A stretch of DNA of 64,000 nt, from contig JACPUR010000025.1 of assembly GCA_016192135.1 (NCBI GenBank), forward strand, positions 1 to 64,000, read 5' to 3'. This stretch comes from Candidatus Tectomicrobia bacterium. Its GTDB lineage: Bacteria > UBA8248. The position numbers were made by a program, and so were the translations under genes. The notes below the pieces were generated by a model. That model worked only from the letters and a program-made list of their open reading frames with translations, searched no databases and was not told the origin of the DNA. The first letter of the stretch is position 1. Every line of letters starts with the position of its first letter. Below, in pieces: positions 23,424 to 32,026 of this stretch.

Positions 23424-24575
23424 TCAGGCCTTCTTCCGGAGCTGGATGCGCTTGCCGGGGACACCGCTCTGCCCAGCCTCCTCGCCAAGGCGGCGGAAGC
23501 GGATGAATTCGGCCACGATGGCGACGGCGATCTCGCCCGGCGTGTCGGCCCCGATCTCGAGGCCGATGGGCGCGTGGACCCGCCGGAGGAGCTCGTCCTG
23601 GTCGAAACCCTTGTCACGGAGGTGGCGGTAGGTGAGCAGCACCTTGCTCTTCGAGCCGATCATGCCGATGTAGCGGGCGGGCGTCTTGAGCGCCCACTCG
23701 AGGACCACCTCGTCGTTCGCGTGCCCGCGCGTGATGATGGCCATGTAGTCCGACTCGTCCACCGGGATCTTGCCGAAGACGGCCGGGAACTCGCCGACGT
23801 AGAAGGCCTCCGCCATCGGGAAGCGCTCCTGGTTGGCGAAGGTGGGCCGGTCCTCGACCACGGCGACGCGGAAGCCCGCCAGGTGCACCGCCTGGGCCAC
23901 GCAGAAAGAGACGTGCCCGCCGCCGAAGAGATAGACCAGCGGCTGGCCGGTGATGGGCTCCAGGAAGATTTCGGTGCCCTCGCCGGGCTGGCGGCGCCGC
24001 TTGCCGGTGCGCTCCTCCTCGCTCGCGAAGGTGAGCACGGAGGGCTGCCCGTTGCGGATGACCTGGGAGCTCTCTCGCCAGAGCTCGGCCGAGTACTCGG
24101 GGATCTCGCCCCGCGCGCTCCCGTCCCGGCGGATGAGCTGCTTCCGCCGCCCGGCGGGCAGGTCGCCCAGGCGCCCCGGCTGGACCACGGTGGCGAGGGC
24201 GGCGCTGCCGCCCCGGCTCCGGATGTCGGCGATCTCGGCGAGCAGGGCGCTGTCGTACGCATCGAAGGGCTCGACGAGAATGTCCACGACGCCGCCGCAG
24301 ATGTGGCCGCTGTCCCCCGCCTGCTGGGCGGTGAGGTCGAACGTCAGCTTCTCGGGTCGGCCGCTCTCCATGATGTTCATGGCCGCCTGCCACACCTCGG
24401 CCTCGAGGCAGCCCCCGCCCACCGTCCCCACGGTGCTCCCGTCCTGGCGGACCAGCATCTTCGCATCCCCGCTCATGGGGGCCGACCCCTTGCGCGCCAC
24501 CACGGTGGCCACGGCGCCGCGCTGCCCGGCCTTCTTGAGCTGGTACATCTCGCGGAAGACGTCCTGCTGGCTCAT
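23424..24575 (-). CDS. XdhC/CoxI family molybdenum-hydroxylase maturation protein
   Basis: The product is 383 residues, from ATG 24575. The N-terminal XdhC/CoxI domain has VARKGSAPMSGDAKMLV and GTVGGGCLEAEVW. The C-terminal Rossmann-type domain has LVYLFGGGHVSFCVAQAVHLAGFRVAVVEDRP and RYIGMIGSKSKVLLTYRHL. XdhC binds molybdenum cofactor, promotes its sulfuration and delivers it to xanthine dehydrogenase-type enzymes. It sits downstream of yqeC and the AAA+/VWA pair, as in cox-type clusters. No hydroxylase structural gene is in the window. Confidence 0.92.
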   Translation of the reverse strand: MSQQDVFREMYQLKKAGQRGAVATVVARKGSAPMSGDAKMLVRQDGSTVGTVGGGCLEAEVWQAAMNIMESGRPEKLTFDLTAQQAGDSGHICGGVVDILVEPFDAYDSALLAEIADIRSRGGSAALATVVQPGRLGDLPAGRRKQLIRRDGSARGEIPEYSAELWRESSQVIRNGQPSVLTFASEEERTGKRRRQPGEGTEIFLEPITGQPLVYLFGGGHVSFCVAQAVHLAGFRVAVVEDRPTFANQERFPMAEAFYVGEFPAVFGKIPVDESDYMAIITRGHANDEVVLEWALKTPARYIGMIGSKSKVLLTYRHLRDKGFDQDELLRRVHAPIGLEIGADTPGEIAVAIVAEFIRFRRLGEEAGQSGVPGKRIQLRKKA

Positions 24576-24612: not shown

Positions 24613-25425
24613 TCAGGCTGCGGGGAATTGATGAGTTATGCCCGGGCCGCCGCCGAGAGAAGCGCAGAGGATCCTCTCGATGGGACCACGGGGAGTGCCC
24701 GCAACGCTCCATATAATATAGGCGGTTTCCTTAAGTTTATCAAGATCCATCGCGTCCGCCTGGTTCAGCAGGACGAGCTTGCGCGCGCCCCTTGGCGCCC
24801 CCTTGAACAGCCCCTCCGGATGTCCCGCCAGCCGCCCGACCGCCTCGGCCGTGACGGGAGCTCCGGACGGGAGTCCCGTTATTTTCCTCAGCAAATCGGA
24901 GCGGAAAGCATGCGCCTCGTCCAGCGGCGCGCCCAGCGCCCGGAGCCCCACGACGCCGACGACGGCCTCGGCCCAGGGGGGAATCACCGGCTCCTCCGGC
25001 CCCGGCGCCTTGATGGGGAGCCCACGGGCGCCGTCCGCCTCGATGAGGAGCACGCCCGCCCCTTCCCGTAGGGCCTCCAGCTCACCAGGGGCGAAACCGT
25101 CCAGCTTCATCCGGCGAAGGGAGGGCTCGCCCGGAACCGGCGCTTCACCCAGGCGGGCGCGGGCCAGGGTGAGGGGGCCGGAGTGCTCCCCGCTCCAGGC
25201 GCCGAGGGTCCGGGCGAGGGATGAAGCCTCGCCCAGCAAAAGGAGCGAGCCCTCCCCGGGCGCGAAGATCTTGGTGGTGGTGGTCAGGAGGGCGGGGCGC
25301 CAGCCGGCGGCGTGGCACTCGGCGGCCAAAGCTGCGAGGAGGCTCGTCTTCCCGCCCGCGCCCACCGCGGCCACGGCCTGGCCGCGCCGGAGGCCCAGGG
25401 CGCGGAGCAGCGGGCCTTCGCTCAC
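24613..25425 (-). CDS. yqeC: YqeC-like putative selenium-dependent hydroxylase accessory protein
   Basis: The product is 270 residues. GTG 25425 overlaps the stop of the VWA gene by GTGA, fixing the start and implying coupling. A P-loop-like GAGGKT lies at residues 22-27 (AVAAVGAGGKTSLLAALAAE). LLTTTTKIFAP and VLLIEADGARGLPIKAPGPEEPVIP are conserved features of the YqeC family, which is genomically tied to selenium-dependent molybdenum hydroxylases. Its biochemical role is not established. The neighbours yqeB and xdhC support the assignment. Confidence 0.9.
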   Translation of the reverse strand: MSEGPLLRALGLRRGQAVAAVGAGGKTSLLAALAAECHAAGWRPALLTTTTKIFAPGEGSLLLLGEASSLARTLGAWSGEHSGPLTLARARLGEAPVPGEPSLRRMKLDGFAPGELEALREGAGVLLIEADGARGLPIKAPGPEEPVIPPWAEAVVGVVGLRALGAPLDEAHAFRSDLLRKITGLPSGAPVTAEAVGRLAGHPEGLFKGAPRGARKLVLLNQADAMDLDKLKETAYIIWSVAGTPRGPIERILCASLGGGPGITHQFPAA

Positions 25426-27194
25426 CAGGCGCCTTCCCGGCTGGCTCCAAGAAGCTCGCGGCGCAGGATGCGCACCAGCTCCTCGGAGAGCTGCGGAAGG
25501 TGCCGCACCACGATGTGGTTCGGGTAGATCTGCTCGACGAAGGGATCGACGACGCCCACCCCGACGACGCGGATGCCCAGCTTCTCCAGTCGGCTCACCG
25601 TCTCGATGAGGTGGCTCGCGTCGCCGTTCGGCTGGCCGTCCGAGGTGATGATGATGATCTTCTCGCGCTCGGGCCGGAGGAGGAGCCTGCGGTAGGCGAA
25701 GAGGAGATGCTCCTCGTCCCAGTTGTTGAAGCGCGGGTAGATGTTCACCATCCGGTGCTTGATGGGCAGGAAGTCCTCGTCGAAGGCCTTGTACACGCGG
25801 TGCTGGAGCGGCGAGTGCCGCATGTGGCGGAACTTGAAAGCGGGGATGTGGCCCAGCGCCGCGGCCATGGCCGCCTCGGAGCTCTCGGTCGAGTAGCCGA
25901 TGACCTCGAAGGGCACCTTCAGGCGGTCGAGCACCTCGGCGAAGAAGATGGTGGCCTCGCGCGCGGCCAGGTACTTCGACTCGCGGTTCATGCTCCCGCT
26001 CTCGTCCACGAGCAGGGTGAAGCAGACGTCCAACCGCTCGGGGCTCTCGCGGCGCTGGAAGAGGCGGTAGCGCCCGAGCCGCTGCTTCCAGAGCTTGGGG
26101 GTGTTGAGCCGGCCCGAGCGGTGGGAGCCGCTGTAGCGGGTGTAGGTGCGCTCGCGGATGATCTGCATGAGCTTCCAGGCCAGCACCTTGATCTGGCTGC
26201 CCGCGTTCTGGACGACCGCCTGGTACTCCTCGGGCTTCCCCTCGGGGGGGACGACGATGGTCCGCTCGTCGGGCAGGGCCGCCGTCGGGTGCACTTCCTT
26301 CTTGTGCCCCTTGAGCTCGAACCAGGGCGAGGCCCAGTGGCCGAGCTTGGCCAGCTCCTCCGGGGTGAGCTCCAAAGGCTCCCCCTCGGCCTCGATGGGC
26401 TCCGCCTGGAGCTCCTGGCTCTTGAGCTCGACGGCGTCGTCCTGCTCGCCCGCCGCGCCCTGCTCCTGGATCTTCTTGAGCACCTCCTCGGGGATGCCGG
26501 TGGCGGCCATCTCCTCGGCGGCCTGGGCCATCTCCTCCTCGGTCAGGAAGCCCCGCACGGCCTCGTAGATCTCCCGGGCCGCGCGGAAGGAATCCGCCGC
26601 GCTTCCGGCCCGGCAGGCGCCCTCCACGGCGGGGGCCGCCCCCCGCAGGAAGGCGGCGACCTCGGGTTCGAACCATCCCGTGCGCAGGGCGCCCGGCCCG
26701 GAGGGGGCCGCTCCCGGCTCGAGGCCCACCCCGCGCAGGTAGAGTCCCCACTGGACCTCCAGGAAACGGGGGAGCTGGCCGGCGGCGAGCTGCCGCTCCG
26801 CCTCCTCCAGCGCGGGGCGGATGAAGGAGCGGAAGTTCTTGCGGGTTCCGGGGAGGGCGTCCGCCAGGCGGTTCTCGCAGCGGGCGTCCTCGAGCGCGTG
26901 CCAGACCTGGAAGAAGCCGGGGCGCGCCTGGTTCTCCCGCAGCGCGCGGGCGGCCCACTTGAGAGTGCCCTCGCGGCGGTGGGCCACCTCGATGAGGGTC
27001 ATTCCCTTCTGGTAGCGGAGGACGCGGTCTTCCTCCAGATCTCCGCTGTTGAGGCGGGAGAGGGTGCGGACGGGATCCTCGATGTGGATGGTCCGCCCCT
27101 CCGGGCCGGAGCCCTCGCCGTAGCGCAGGGAGAGGTCGTAGTCGTGGGAGGCGATCTGGGCCAGGGCTTCGAGGCGGGCGCGGCGCCTTTCCAT
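25422..27194 (-). CDS. VWA-domain protein (CobT/CoxE/NorD-like) paired with AAA+ ATPase
   Basis: The product is 590 residues, from ATG 27194, 12 nt after the AAA+ gene. A helical N-terminal half includes VWHALEDARCENRLADALPG, characteristic of CobT/NorD proteins, and an acidic linker of about residues 240-285. The C-terminal VWA domain has a complete MIDAS start (DESGSMN, 397-403) and TSDGQPNGD. Such proteins work with MoxR/CobS-type ATPases to insert metals or remodel metalloenzymes: CobST for cobalt, CoxDE for the Cu-Mo site of CO dehydrogenase. Between yqeB and yqeC it probably helps activate a molybdenum hydroxylase. Confidence 0.88.
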   Translation of the reverse strand: MERRRARLEALAQIASHDYDLSLRYGEGSGPEGRTIHIEDPVRTLSRLNSGDLEEDRVLRYQKGMTLIEVAHRREGTLKWAARALRENQARPGFFQVWHALEDARCENRLADALPGTRKNFRSFIRPALEEAERQLAAGQLPRFLEVQWGLYLRGVGLEPGAAPSGPGALRTGWFEPEVAAFLRGAAPAVEGACRAGSAADSFRAAREIYEAVRGFLTEEEMAQAAEEMAATGIPEEVLKKIQEQGAAGEQDDAVELKSQELQAEPIEAEGEPLELTPEELAKLGHWASPWFELKGHKKEVHPTAALPDERTIVVPPEGKPEEYQAVVQNAGSQIKVLAWKLMQIIRERTYTRYSGSHRSGRLNTPKLWKQRLGRYRLFQRRESPERLDVCFTLLVDESGSMNRESKYLAAREATIFFAEVLDRLKVPFEVIGYSTESSEAAMAAALGHIPAFKFRHMRHSPLQHRVYKAFDEDFLPIKHRMVNIYPRFNNWDEEHLLFAYRRLLLRPEREKIIIITSDGQPNGDASHLIETVSRLEKLGIRVVGVGVVDPFVEQIYPNHIVVRHLPQLSEELVRILRRELLGASREGAW

Positions 27195-27206: not shown

Positions 27207-28091
27207 CTAGAAGTGGTTGTCCACGATGTCCTCGAGCACCTTCGCGTCGAAGGGGTTCACCTTGCTGAAGACGGTCGAGGCGGCGGCCTCCATGGGGTCG
27301 AACTGGGCGGCCATCCGCGCCCAGTCGATGAGCCGGCGGGTGCTGAAGGTACAGAAGATCTTCTCGTTCCGCATGGCCTCGCGCGCGTCATGCGCCACGC
27401 GCACCATCCGCTCGACCAATGCGCGGTCCTCGTTGCCGCTCTGGCGCATGACCACCTTGATCTCCACCTCGAGGGGGAGATACTCCATCCGGATGGTGAC
27501 CGGGAAGCGATCGAGGAGGGCCTCGTTCAAGGGCTTCGTGCCGCCGTAGCGCCGGTCCTCGTGCGGGTTCATGCTGGCGAAGAGCCGGAAGCCCGGGTTC
27601 GGGTGCACGATGCGGCCATCGTACTCGGAGAGCACGATCATCCGGTCGTCGTCGAGGAGGCTGTGGAGGCAGAAGGCGATCTCGGGCAGGCAGGCGTTGA
27701 TCTCGTCGATCAGCAGCCAGTCGCCCGCCTCCATCGCCTCGATCAGGATGCCGTTCACCCAGTAGGTGCCCCGCTCGTTGATCATGAGCTTGCCCACGAA
27801 CTCGTCCACCGTGGTCATCCCGTTCAGGTTGACCCGGCGGAAGCCGTTGTTCGTGACGTGGGCCAGGTGGCGCACGGCGAGGGTCTTGCCCACGCCGGTT
27901 TCCCCGATGAGGAGGACGGGCAGGTTCTGGCCCACGGCCCAGGCGATGCGCTCAAGGGAGTCGCCCGCGGGCAGGTAGAACTGCGGGGCGGGGAGGAACG
28001 GGTTGTCCTTGTGGGGGTTGATCGGAATGGCGCTCCGGCCGACCCGGTAGGTACCGTTCTCGACGGTTTCGGTGAGGATGCCGACGCTCAA
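27207..28091 (-). CDS. MoxR/CobS-like AAA+ ATPase
   Basis: The product is 294 residues. TTG 28091 overlaps the upstream yqeB stop by TTGA; the longer frame reading through to 28193 lies inside yqeB. Walker A GETGVGKT is at 63-70, Walker B LLIDE at 126-130, with RLFASMNPHEDRRYGG and LDRFPVTIRM (sensor and arginine regions) after it. The family couples ATP hydrolysis to metal insertion or enzyme remodelling with a VWA partner, here the next gene. It resembles CoxD/CobS/NorQ groups; an exact subfamily cannot be fixed by eye. Confidence 0.9.
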   Translation of the reverse strand: MSVGILTETVENGTYRVGRSAIPINPHKDNPFLPAPQFYLPAGDSLERIAWAVGQNLPVLLIGETGVGKTLAVRHLAHVTNNGFRRVNLNGMTTVDEFVGKLMINERGTYWVNGILIEAMEAGDWLLIDEINACLPEIAFCLHSLLDDDRMIVLSEYDGRIVHPNPGFRLFASMNPHEDRRYGGTKPLNEALLDRFPVTIRMEYLPLEVEIKVVMRQSGNEDRALVERMVRVAHDAREAMRNEKIFCTFSTRRLIDWARMAAQFDPMEAAASTVFSKVNPFDAKVLEDIVDNHF

Positions 28092-28942
28092 TGGGCTCGC
28101 TCCACGGTGGAATGTACGCCGAACAGGAACATCATGATGGCCTCGAGGACGCCGCCGGCGACCGCCCGCGATTTGTCCGAGATGGTGAAGCAATGGGCGG
28201 GCTTGGCGCGGGGATCGACGTCCCCCACCTTGAAGCCCTCGGTCACCTCCAGTCCCTCGCGGACGAGGCCCCGCAGGACGCCCGCGATCTGGGCCCTCAC
28301 CTCCCGCCCCGCGACGAGCCCCACCGGCTGGCCCTTCTCGACGCGGTCGCCAATCCGGCAGATAGGCTCGAAGCGGCCCCGGGCGGGGGAGCGCAGCAGG
28401 CGCTCAGTGGTGTAGCCCCCGATGTCGCCGGGCACCCCGGTGTTGGGCTCGGCCGGGCCGCTCAGGATCACCCGCCCGATGTCGTGCCCGCGCGCCGTCT
28501 CGATCACCGCGTGCGCGTCCTCGCCGGCCGAGAATCCCGGGCCGAGGGCCACGACCACCCCGGCCTGGTCCATCCGGGTGCCGAGGTTTCTCTTCGCGAG
28601 GATGGCGTCCACCAGGGCGGCCGGGCGGGCGAGGGAAACGATGGCGGCCTCCGGGTCCACCACCACGGGCACCACCCCCTCCGCCAGGAGGGCGCGGGCC
28701 GCGGCGAGCTTCTCTCCGGGGGTGCCGCCCTTCGCGGGCCGGGCCTCGACTCCCTCGACCTCAATGCGGCCCGAATAGAGGCACTCCGCGAAAGCCACTG
28801 TGCGCCGCACCATGGTCGGGTTCTCCACCTCGGTCACAATGACCGGGAAACCGGCCCGGAAGAGGCGGTGGGCGGTGCCGGTGGCGAGGTCGCCTCCCCC
28901 CTTCACGACGACGAGGGAGCCGGCGACCGAACGTTTCTGCAC
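28088..28942 (-). CDS. yqeB: EF2563/YqeB family selenium-dependent molybdenum hydroxylase system protein
   Basis: The product is 284 residues, from GTG 28942 behind GGGAGGA. Conserved features are VVVKGGGDLATGTAHRLFRAGFPVIVTE at the start, the middle block ALGPGFSAGEDAHAVIETARGHDIGRVI, and a C-terminal hammerhead-like GDRVEKGQPVGLVAGREVRAQIAGVLRGLV. This family was defined by its co-occurrence with selenium-dependent molybdenum hydroxylases and the selenium donor SelD. Its exact chemistry is unknown. It follows the UGSC pair after 59 nt, linking two selenium-related modules on one apparent transcript. Confidence 0.9.
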   Translation of the reverse strand: MQKRSVAGSLVVVKGGGDLATGTAHRLFRAGFPVIVTEVENPTMVRRTVAFAECLYSGRIEVEGVEARPAKGGTPGEKLAAARALLAEGVVPVVVDPEAAIVSLARPAALVDAILAKRNLGTRMDQAGVVVALGPGFSAGEDAHAVIETARGHDIGRVILSGPAEPNTGVPGDIGGYTTERLLRSPARGRFEPICRIGDRVEKGQPVGLVAGREVRAQIAGVLRGLVREGLEVTEGFKVGDVDPRAKPAHCFTISDKSRAVAGGVLEAIMMFLFGVHSTVERAH

Positions 28943-29001: not shown

Positions 29002-30084
29002 TCAACGCTCAGGCGACCCGGCGGGGCGCCCGACGGGGACCGTCACGGCGCGCGTGGGGCCGAAGGTGGGCAGGTAGGCGGAGTGTTTGCCCGCCCCCCC
29101 GGCCACCACCACGAGGATGTCCCCGGGCCGGTCCACGAGCGGGATGAGGGCGGCGTTGTCCCCGGCCCGGGCCTCGAGCTCCGGGGGCCAGTCCCGCATC
29201 CCCCACATGCCCCCCCGGCGGAGTTCCCGGACGCTCTTGCGCGCCCGCTCGTGCAGGGCGCGCCGCGCGTCCGCCTTGGAGAGGCCTCCGCCGGCCAGGG
29301 TGTCCGCGTGCTCGGGGCCCAGGACGACCATCACCTCCCCCCGCAGGTAAAAGTTGTTGCTCCCCATGACCGCCATGGTGTCCGCGATGGTGGCGAGCAG
29401 GCCCTCGGCGTCGTGGCTCACGTGGTCGTTCACGTTGTGCGGGCCCTCCGCCGCGATGAGGGTGACGGCGCTCTCGTCCCGCGCGAAGCCGCGCTCGGCG
29501 TGGAAGGGGGGCCAGGGGCTCTCGGCCTCGTTCTCGGCGATGCAGAAGGCGTACTTCGCCGGGGAGCCCTGAGTGGAGCGGTCGAGGACGCCCGGGATTG
29601 CCCCTCCGGCGTGCAGGAGCACCAGCCGGAGCGCCCGGCCGATGGTGGCGTTCGCGCGGCGCCCGGGGCCGAAGCAGCCGCTGCCTCCGTTGATCTCCAG
29701 CTCCCCGGCGATGGGGCCGTTCACGAGGATGAGGGGAGCGGCGGGGTGGGTGGTCGCCTGGATGGCGTGGAGCGAGAAGGCCGGGTCGAGCGCGGCCCGG
29801 ACGGCGGCGGCCAGGACGGGCATGTAGGCCGGGAGGCAGCCCGCCATGACGGCGTTGACCGCCAGGGTTTCGGCCGTCACCACCCCCTGCCTGGGGGGCA
29901 TGACGCCCAGCTCGGTTCCCGGGGGGAGGCCCAGGCCCCCGAGCATCTTCTCCACGCGGTCCGGGGTGGGGGGCACGACGGGGAGCCCGTCCCCCCAGCC
30001 CCGCGCCTCGAACAGGCGGAGGATGCCCTCCGGGGTGTCCGGCACCCGGAGGCGCTCGCTCAGGAGAGGCGCCGGATCGGTCAA
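29002..30084 (-). CDS. Conserved hypothetical protein, UGSC-selenoprotein partner
   Basis: The product is 360 residues. The best start is TTG 30084, 10 nt after the UGSC stop, with no clear ribosome site; translational coupling is likely. Notable conserved-looking blocks are FEARGWGDGLPVVPPTPDRVEKML, NGPIAGELEINGGSGCFGPGRRANATIGRALRLV and VMGSNNFYLRGEVMVVLGPEHA. I know this only as an uncharacterised family that tends to accompany UGSC-type proteins, and I claim no function. No signal peptide or membrane segment is seen. A glycine-rich GGSGCFGPG could be a redox or ligand site. Confidence 0.75.
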   Translation of the reverse strand: MTDPAPLLSERLRVPDTPEGILRLFEARGWGDGLPVVPPTPDRVEKMLGGLGLPPGTELGVMPPRQGVVTAETLAVNAVMAGCLPAYMPVLAAAVRAALDPAFSLHAIQATTHPAAPLILVNGPIAGELEINGGSGCFGPGRRANATIGRALRLVLLHAGGAIPGVLDRSTQGSPAKYAFCIAENEAESPWPPFHAERGFARDESAVTLIAAEGPHNVNDHVSHDAEGLLATIADTMAVMGSNNFYLRGEVMVVLGPEHADTLAGGGLSKADARRALHERARKSVRELRRGGMWGMRDWPPELEARAGDNAALIPLVDRPGDILVVVAGGAGKHSAYLPTFGPTRAVTVPVGRPAGSPER

Positions 30085-30094
30085 AGGCGGGGGC

Positions 30095-30700
30095 TCAGGC
30101 GAAGAGCGGCTTGTGCTGGACGACGCGCCGGGGCGGGAGGTAGACCCGCTCGCGGTACTCGCGCCGGAGGGTTTCGGCGTCGGCGGTGAGGGCGCGGAGG
30201 GCCTCCCCGGCGGCGCCGTCCCCCATGGCGCGCGCGGCCTCGGGCGGGATGCCCCCGACCGGGTGGGGCACCACCACGATGGGGAGCCCCGGCATCCCGA
30301 GCGCCTGGCGCTCGCTGGCGCCCAGGGCGGCGAAGACGCTCGAGCAGAAGGTGACCGTCGGCACCCCCGCCCTCTCCAGCCTCACCGAGTCGTGGACACT
30401 CCACGACGTGCAGCTCCCTCAGTCCCCCACCGCGTTGGCCACGACATCCACCTGGGGGATGAACTCCTCGATGCGGCTCTCCGGGAGGGTGGGGTTCTCC
30501 TTGCGCCACCAGACGGGGGTGATTCCGGCCCGCTCGCCCAGGAGCTCCGCGACCCGGGCCAGTAGGGCGTCCCCGTTCGGCTTGTTGTTGTGCAGGAGCC
30601 CCAGGCGCAAGCCGCCGAGACTCGCCGGGCGCGGAGCGAGGGGGTGATCCTCCGCCCGTACCGCGCCGAGGGGGGAGAGGATCTCGATGGTGCGGCTCAT
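30095..30700 (-). CDS. UGSC family selenoprotein with in-frame UGA (Sec94)
   Basis: The complete gene is 201 codons, from ATG 30700 to the TGA at 30097-30095, with an internal TGA at 30421-30419 read as selenocysteine 94. The frame is continuous on both sides: VVANAVGD, then Sec, then GSCTSWSVHDSV. This gives the exact U-G-S-C motif of a selenoprotein family first noticed in marine metagenomes. The N-terminal part (APRPASLGGLRLGLLHNNKPNGDALL) and the C-terminal part (AGVPTVTFCSSVF, GLPIVVVPHPVGG) also fit that family. A SECIS-like hairpin starts 11 nt after the UGA. The Sec-x-x-Cys pair suggests redox chemistry, but the function is unknown. Ordinary gene calling would report a 93-codon gene and a separate downstream ORF. 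Confidence 0.9.
30389..30421 (-). promoter_or_regulatory. Bacterial SECIS-like element of UGSC gene (UGA plus hairpin)
   Basis: Reading the minus strand from the UGA (30421-30419), an 11-nt spacer leads to stem GTCGTGG (30407-30401), loop AGTGT (30400-30396) and CCACGAC (30395-30389). The stem is 7 bp perfect, or 8 bp if the A-T loop ends pair. The apical loop starts 18 nt after the UGA and contains a G-U, matching the geometry expected for bacterial SECIS elements, which lie inside the coding region. Confidence 0.75.
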
Positions 30701-30728: not shown

Positions 30729-31901
30729 TCACAGCCCCAGCAGGTTGCGGGCGATGATGAGGCGCTGGATCTGGCTCGTCCCCTCGACGATCTGGATCTG
30801 CTTGGCGTCGCGCATGAAGCGCTCGAGGGGATGATCCTTCATGTAGCCAGCCCCGCCCAGCACCTGGATGGCGTCGATGGCCACCTTCATGGCCATGTCG
30901 GCGGCGTAGGTCTTGGCGGCGGAGAAGTAGTGGGCGTTCTCCCGGGTGTAGAGCCCGGCGTCCACGAGGGAGGCGCCCCGGTAGACGAGCAGGCGGGCGG
31001 CCTCGATCTCGATGAACATGTCGGCCAGCATGAACTGGACGGCCTGGAAGTTGGCGATGGGCTGGCCGAAGGCCTCGCGCTCCTTGGCGTAGTTGGAGGC
31101 GTAGTCCAGGCAGCCCTGGGCGAGGCCCACGGCGCGCGCCCCGATGGCGGGCCGCATCTGGTTGAAGCCCATCATGGCGCTGCGGAAGCCCTTGTTGAGT
31201 TCCCCGACTTGATTTTCCAGCGGCACCTCCACGTTCTCGAAGTGGAGGAGGCAGGTGGAGAAGCCCTTCATACCCATCTTGCGCTCGAAGCGGCCGATGC
31301 TGAAGCCGGGCGCACCCTTGGGGACGATGAAGTAGGTGATGCCCCGGGTGCCGGCCTCCGGGTCGGTCTTGGCGGCCACGAGGATGAAGTCGGCCTTGTC
31401 GGGCCCCGTGATAAAGCACTTGGTGCCGTTGATGACCCAGCGGTCCCCGCGCCGCTCGGCCCGGGTGCGGATGTTGCCCGCGTCCGAGCCGGCGTGGGGC
31501 TCGGTCAGGGCGTAGGAGCCCCTGAGCTCGCCCTTGGCCAGGCCGGTCAGGTAATGCCTGCGCTGGGCCTCGGTGCCGCTCAGGTGGATGACCCGGCTCG
31601 AGAGCATGTTCAGGACGATGAAGAGGGGGCAATTCGAGCAGAAGCGGGCGATCTCCTCGATGGTGATGCACCCGCCCATGAATCCCATCCCGGCCCCGCC
31701 GTACTCCTCCGGCAGGAAGACGCCCAGGAGCTGCTGCCGCTTGAGGACCTCGAAGATGTCCTCGGGGTATTCCTCCCTCTCGTCGATCTCGGCGGCCCGG
31801 GGGGCCACGTGGCGCCCGGCCAGCGCCCGCACCGTCTGGCGCAGCATCTTCTGAGACTCGTTCAGGTCGAACTGCAGGTCGGTCTCGGCCTGGATGCTCA
31901 T
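30729..31901 (-). CDS. Acyl-CoA dehydrogenase
   Basis: The product is 390 residues, from ATG 31901, nine bases after GGAG. Signatures are SYALTEPHAGSDAGNIRTRAER for FAD binding, KCFITGPDKADFI, REAFGQPIANFQAVQFMLADM, and the C-terminal RDAKQIQIVEGTSQIQRLIIARN. The glutamate of VEGTSQ is the expected catalytic base. It oxidises an acyl-CoA with electrons passing to ETF. It is the first gene of the minus-strand operon, 28 nt before the UGSC selenoprotein, and diverges from the aroF leader. Confidence 0.92.
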   Translation of the reverse strand: MSIQAETDLQFDLNESQKMLRQTVRALAGRHVAPRAAEIDEREEYPEDIFEVLKRQQLLGVFLPEEYGGAGMGFMGGCITIEEIARFCSNCPLFIVLNMLSSRVIHLSGTEAQRRHYLTGLAKGELRGSYALTEPHAGSDAGNIRTRAERRGDRWVINGTKCFITGPDKADFILVAAKTDPEAGTRGITYFIVPKGAPGFSIGRFERKMGMKGFSTCLLHFENVEVPLENQVGELNKGFRSAMMGFNQMRPAIGARAVGLAQGCLDYASNYAKEREAFGQPIANFQAVQFMLADMFIEIEAARLLVYRGASLVDAGLYTRENAHYFSAAKTYAADMAMKVAIDAIQVLGGAGYMKDHPLERFMRDAKQIQIVEGTSQIQRLIIARNLLGL

Positions 31902-32026
31902 GGAGAAGCGCTCCGGCGCGGGAAAAGAAAAAAGGCCAAAATGAAGGACAAGCCGCATGATCTCCTCCGGCGCGGCGGCCTGTCAACGCGGGGGCCGGGG
32001 TGCCTGCCGGCGGCGCGGGCCGGCTC

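Follow-up and report, generated by a model that had tools for sequence, protein, structure and literature searches.

Few selenoprotein families are as abundant in aquatic metagenomes as UGSC, for which a survey counts 255 selenocysteine (Sec) sequences in the GOS data set (PMC2398784). The same survey assumes a thioredoxin-like fold for UGSC and reports its fusion to a domain named 'Unknown_1' in GOS metagenomes (PMC2398784). An earlier note on the DNA analysed here referred to a UGSC selenoprotein family from marine metagenomes. The first half of that description stands, since the selenoprotein family is a known one; the second does not, as the survey reports UGSC to be relatively commoner outside marine samples, and the family is not specifically marine (PMC2398784). 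A further group of described systems relevant to the locus comprises the selenoproteins GrdB, GrdF and GrdH from the reductases of glycine, sarcosine and betaine (models TIGR01917 and TIGR01918) and PrdB from D-proline reductase (TIGR04483), which the Sec region of UGSC matches weakly but repeatedly, with the register of the Sec residue kept. The UGSC family is thus already known, and what is added here is a near-constant partner gene and a plausible kinship with GrdB and PrdB.

Reading frame and family membership

The window is a 64,000-nucleotide stretch of contig JACPUR010000025.1 from a Candidatus Tectomicrobia bacterium. The minus-strand frame from 30700 to 30095 reads VDVVANAVGD-TGA-GSCTSWSVHDSVRLERAGVPT, and its sole interruption is the TGA at 30421-30419, which lies in frame within VVANAVGD-TGA-GSCTSWSVHDSV (Table 1). 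A mechanical ORF caller reports a 93-residue ORF at 30419-30700 and a 96-residue ORF at 30095-30385. The earlier note had described a continuous frame with a U-G-S-C motif, split by the TGA alone, and had expected automatic gene finding to break it into two ORFs; the frame is present as described and the ORF list contains exactly those two.

The read-through protein matches both models of the UGSC family over their full length, scoring 133.6 bits against NF041046 (curated cut-off 125) and 169.8 bits against PF24696 (curated cut-off 25). When the two halves are scored separately, they reach 33.5/52.1 and 59.5/60.5 bits on adjoining parts of these two models, each half matching its own part. The U/C-G-S-C motif of the family is present as TGA-GSC in frame. 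The locus protein therefore shares with the family the full-length match, the U-G-S-C motif, the in-frame UGA and a Sec-decoding genome. It differs in that its C-terminus runs on for about 30 residues past the model, and its gene sits in a cluster with the order acyl-CoA dehydrogenase (ACAD), UGSC, partner, YqeB, MoxR and VWA. Nothing places the protein outside the family; it is a further member of an already named family, and as a selenoprotein discovery it is ordinary. No UGSC match was found in PHROGs, and PDB sequence searches with the UGSC family and the partner family gave no match.

Table 1. Features of the UGSC locus, in window coordinates.
Feature	Position	Strand	Details
UGSC family selenoprotein CDS	30095..30700	-	201 aa, Sec at residue 94; ATG at 30700, final TGA stop 30097-30095
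In-frame TGA as selenocysteine, U94 of U-G-S-C	30419..30421	-	TGA in 137/141 homologous stretches; Cys in L142
Bacterial SECIS-like hairpin GTCGTGG-AGTGT-CCACGAC	30389..30407	-	begins 11 nt 3' of UGA
Acyl-CoA dehydrogenase family gene, upstream	30729..31958	-	conserved neighbour
UGSC partner protein	29002..30084	-	360 aa, possible start TTG 30084; invariant positions include DG.P, AGC (Cys83), W191, GG
YqeB, selenium-dependent molybdenum cofactor biosynthesis protein	28088..28942	-	TIGR03309, 354.5 bits, cut-off 220; conserved neighbour
MoxR/CbbQ-type AAA ATPase	27207..28193	-	conserved neighbour
CobT/CoxE-like VWA-domain protein	25422..27194	-	conserved neighbour
XdhC-type molybdenum hydroxylase maturation factor	23424..24575	-	UGSC's strand; called ORF overlaps next

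Decoding of the in-frame UGA

UGSC stretches number 141 and occur in 36 of 386 genomes; exactly one in-frame TGA is present in 137 of them. Of the four stretches without a TGA, three are fragments that fail to cover the site, and the fourth has Cys in place of Sec, in the motif CGLC (GCGLCT; L142, G288:C4:28000-32000). Genome G288 is 99% complete and lacks selA, and its partner gene appears to be in two pieces. Of the 37 genomes tested for selA, 31 scored over the cut-off, and the six others are the incomplete G001, G010 and G016, together with G012, G090, which holds a fragment only, and G288. The closest relatives, which are 84% identical, retain the TGA; the closest ones that carry a name are MAGs of Candidatus Tectomicrobia. 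Between the window and two close relatives, none of the 33 nucleotides in the 11 codons that follow the TGA differs; outside this stretch both halves of the gene vary, chiefly at third positions. An alignment to homologues, Cys versions included, had been proposed as a check in the earlier note. Among the homologues the same TGA is kept, both flanks and the SECIS-like hairpin are conserved, and a Cys version occurs in a genome without selA.

If the TGA were a real stop, the locus would be a pseudogene or two separate genes, as the two entries in the mechanical ORF list would have it. This is highly improbable, given the recurrence of the TGA throughout the homologous stretches, the residues conserved between the TGA and the GTG of the second ORF, the conserved hairpin and the intact Sec genes. 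One UGSC gene, in L150 (G379:C6:84500-88000), shifts frame a few codons past the motif, by sequencing error or decay.

The hairpin downstream of the UGA is described here with pairs numbered from the U of the UGA. All 49 sequences that share the common arrangement form its five core pairs, 17-31 to 21-27. In these 49 sequences strict pairing is found in 306 of 343 cases and falls to at most 136 of 343 once the 3' side is slid. Third codon positions pair with each other: TGG always occurs with xxC two codons on, TGC always with xxG, and further pairings join TCG with CAC, TCA with CAT or TAT, and TCC with CAG. For Val codons the covariation has p=4e-7, uncorrected for relatedness. Among 23 diverse sequences, other bacterial families included, the covariation score is 0.449, compared with 0.116 after shuffling (0 of 500) and at most 0.101 after sliding, with kinship weakening the shuffle test. 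A tree-based independent-pairs test, in which events are few, counts at least four changes at pair 21-27 and two at pair 18-30, the two best pairs. Wherever the loop carries Ser among the 52 sequences compared, its codon is AGT, and AGT makes up 1% of the Ser codons in genes of the window. In three paralogues, which have the different peptide SWLVRNH, the hairpin is shifted. Pair covariation was used as evidence for the hairpin because the comparison of free energies was not decisive in this GC-rich DNA: set against dinucleotide shuffles and codon-preserving shuffles, the minimum free energy gave a z of -1.6 and, over 52 sequences, a mean z of -1.0. No Rfam family matches the SECIS-like hairpin. 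As judged from the aligned sequences, the hairpin is kept by compensatory third-position changes.

The genome to which the window belongs (G000; 3.92 Mb, 41 contigs, 96.8% complete) contains a tRNA-Sec on contig C28 (74.8 bits, cut-off 47; anticodon UCA by ARAGORN), selA (C15:42711-44093, 540 bits) and, adjoining it, selB (C15:45004-46890, 389 bits). The search for Sec machinery suggested in the earlier note thus succeeded for these three, but selD was not found in the assembly with TIGR00476, the best match being under the cut-off. This best match, on contig C13 (L012), was dropped as a selD candidate, as it was judged ThiL-like and lies beside a ThiE-like frame. Both genus mates carry selD, as a Sec form. 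It is also present in seven of nine other genomes of the same family that were searched (not in G007 and G010), with one in-frame TGA in each copy. Because the genus mates and most of the searched same-family genomes carry selD, its absence here is probably an assembly gap.

Many called genes in the window end with TGA, so UGA is a normal stop and is not reassigned genome-wide. Reassignment of UGA, or its reading by ordinary suppression, has a negligible likelihood: no supporting point was found for it, and it is opposed by these TGA-terminated genes as well as by the joint presence of tRNA-Sec, selA, selB and the SECIS-like hairpin. On sequence evidence, the locus encodes a true, functional UGSC selenoprotein, because of the family scores, the tRNA-Sec, selA and selB genes, the compensated hairpin and the near-universal TGA. 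The reading as a UGSC selenoprotein put forward in the earlier note is supported; the genome does possess Sec machinery, and the homologues do not all stop at this position.

The partner protein and the gene neighbourhood

The partner protein encoded at 29002-30084 has no match in Pfam, NCBIfam or PDB in sequence searches. Its gene adjoins UGSC, upstream or downstream, in 48 of the 54 distinct loci examined, and the two are fused in one reading frame in L063-L068. No directly adjacent partner is present in six loci of one paralogue clade, five of which were seen with flanks of 1.5 kb only. The partner profile, in a search that scored at most five candidates per genome, was found in 36 of 386 genomes, and 35 of these are common to the 36 genomes with UGSC. 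The two exceptions to the co-occurrence are fragments, one of 64 model positions of UGSC (G090) and one of 41 model positions of the partner (G381). No partner was found in viral contigs. Positions invariant in 23 diverse partners are, among others, D32, G33, P35, P39, A81, G82, C83, N145, R150, W191, G329 and G330.

Because of the co-occurrence, adjacency and fusion, it is strongly inferred that the UGSC protein and the product of 29002-30084 are subunits of a two-component enzyme. The fusion of UGSC in L063-L068 resembles the fusion with 'Unknown_1' reported in the survey (PMC2398784), and 'Unknown_1' is possibly the partner family found here. The predicted structure of the partner gave weak class I fumarase-like matches only, which were judged not meaningful, and its fold had no confident match.

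The gene order ACAD-UGSC-partner-YqeB-MoxR-VWA is conserved within the genus, and it recurs in a second genus of the family, where a further ACAD and a RidA-like gene are added. In the UGSC cluster of a relative, a RidA-like (Ribonuc_L-PSP) gene adjoins YqeB (L053:7956-8366), a hint of imine or enamine intermediates. A second UGSC copy in the same genome as the window (L020:8738-9253, minus strand; G000:C19:130740-131243) contains an in-frame TGA and reads GGUGSCTLC. Nearby are three paralogues of the partner and genes for a molybdenum hydroxylase, a crotonase and an arylmalonate decarboxylase-like protein. Two to eight UGSC copies are present in each of the 17 other genomes of the same family. 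Other UGSC copies neighbour CoA-transferases, crotonases, SDRs, FAD enzymes and solute transporters. Because genes of CoA and carboxylate catabolism neighbour UGSC copies, the context points to a breakdown of organic acids or CoA esters in which the paralogues would be specialised by substrate.

The YqeB gene two genes off could instead indicate that UGSC handles selenium, as a sensor, carrier or maturation factor, for example in delivery to a selenium-dependent molybdenum cofactor. The YqeB, MoxR and VWA genes next to this orthologue are conserved there, XdhC is encoded on the same strand as UGSC, and the second copy in the genome lies beside a molybdenum hydroxylase gene. However, most other UGSC copies are found without YqeB, beside crotonase, CoA-transferase, transporter, SDR or FAD genes, and up to eight divergent copies per genome better suit substrate-specific enzymes. 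A role in selenium handling is therefore quite improbable. As a separate observation, the position of YqeB beside the UGSC-partner pair means that the genome may also use the selenium-dependent molybdenum cofactor.

A plausible kinship with GrdB and PrdB and a proposed mechanism

The GrdB model TIGR01917 is matched by 13 of 29 UGSC proteins at E<=0.01, with a best value of 1.2e-5. Additional matches are to the GrdF, GrdH and PrdB models, and none are to thioredoxin families. An hhalign comparison of UGSC with PrdB-like selenoproteins of the same bacterial family gave P=1.4e-5 and a probability of 80% over 40 columns, with the Sec positions aligned. GRDB-like proteins of the same bacterial family read ATUGTGTRSGA or STUGTSTRSGA, and their motif U-G-T-G/S-T-R is close to U-G-S-C-T. 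UGSC proteins nevertheless differ from GrdB and PrdB. They fall far under the curated cut-offs, the locus protein scoring 20.2 bits against TIGR01917 (cut-off 602) and 18.9 bits against TIGR01918 (cut-off 65), and they are stand-alone proteins of about 180-200 residues without the N-terminal part of GRDB (PF07355). Unlike in glycine and D-proline reductase, no pyruvoyl subunit of the GrdE/PrdA type was recognised with UGSC, and the partner falls into no NCBIfam or Pfam family. It is plausible that UGSC is related to the C-terminal Sec domain of GrdB and PrdB, as a distant homologue by sequence comparison.

In the predicted structure of UGSC (pLDDT 81.6), strands alternate with helices and form a parallel sheet, and Sec94 follows strand 3. 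The best structure matches in the PDB are lumazine synthase and flavodoxins, with modest TM-scores, and no thioredoxin is among the matches listed. The predicted fold is flavodoxin-like and not thioredoxin-like.

The UxxC motif could also be that of a thioredoxin- or peroxiredoxin-like thiol-disulphide protein, in which the pair reduces disulphides, peroxides or similar substrates, and a thioredoxin-like fold and a redox role are assumed in the literature (PMC2398784; PMC13188914). This alternative is considered unlikely, since the sequence matches go to GrdB, GrdF, GrdH and PrdB and the predicted sheet is parallel with Sec after the third strand. The flavodoxin-like prediction and the plausible kinship with GrdB and PrdB argue against the thioredoxin-like role assumed for UGSC. 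A paralogue in L061 (1828-2403, minus strand) reads U-G-S-S, with Ser in place of the resolving Cys, and retains Sec and the hairpin. The second Cys thus appears not to be strictly required in every UGSC copy. The Sec-x-x-Cys pair may act as a redox pair, as the earlier note proposed, a role to be weighed against the U-G-S-S copy and a kinship with GrdB and PrdB rather than with thioredoxin-like redox proteins.

The best explanation as a whole, regarded as probable, is that the Sec-decoded UGSC protein and its partner form a GrdB-like two-component reductase. As sequence and comparison show, SelB and tRNA-Sec decode the UGA at 30421-30419 as Sec, at the hairpin that follows it. The Sec residue is predicted to lie where strand 3 gives way to a helix, within a flavodoxin-like domain that distant homology links to the C-terminal Sec domain of GrdB and PrdB. 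In the proposed mechanism, by analogy with those systems, the partner may bind and activate a carboxylate or CoA-type substrate, and the Sec selenolate would attack a carbon-heteroatom bond of the substrate held by the partner. Cys97 could then resolve the selenium adduct to a selenenylsulfide, which a cellular reductant would recycle. The UGSC paralogues within one genome may serve different substrates.

A more tentative proposal, given somewhat less than even chances, is that UGSC and its partner represent a new class of selenium-dependent two-component enzymes. In this class, a GrdB-like Sec domain would be combined with a new substrate-binding protein that replaces the pyruvoyl subunit. 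The pair would have been duplicated, to as many as about eight copies in a genome, and would act outside amino acid fermentation, breaking carbon-heteroatom bonds in various carboxylates or CoA esters. The near-obligate partner, the gene fusions and the plausible GrdB kinship make the orphan UGSC family a defined system of two genes, open to co-expression and assay; because of the partner and the kinship, the function of this abundant family becomes testable.

Further selenoprotein genes related to GrdB were observed. GRDB-like selenoproteins with UGTGTR or UGTSTR motifs are encoded in the same bacterial family (L119, L120, L122, L098). Three more short PrdB/GrdB-like selenoprotein genes are present in G000 on contigs C21, C23 and C30 (L109, L110, L111), with the motifs U-P-L-C, U-G-L-C and U-P-N-C.
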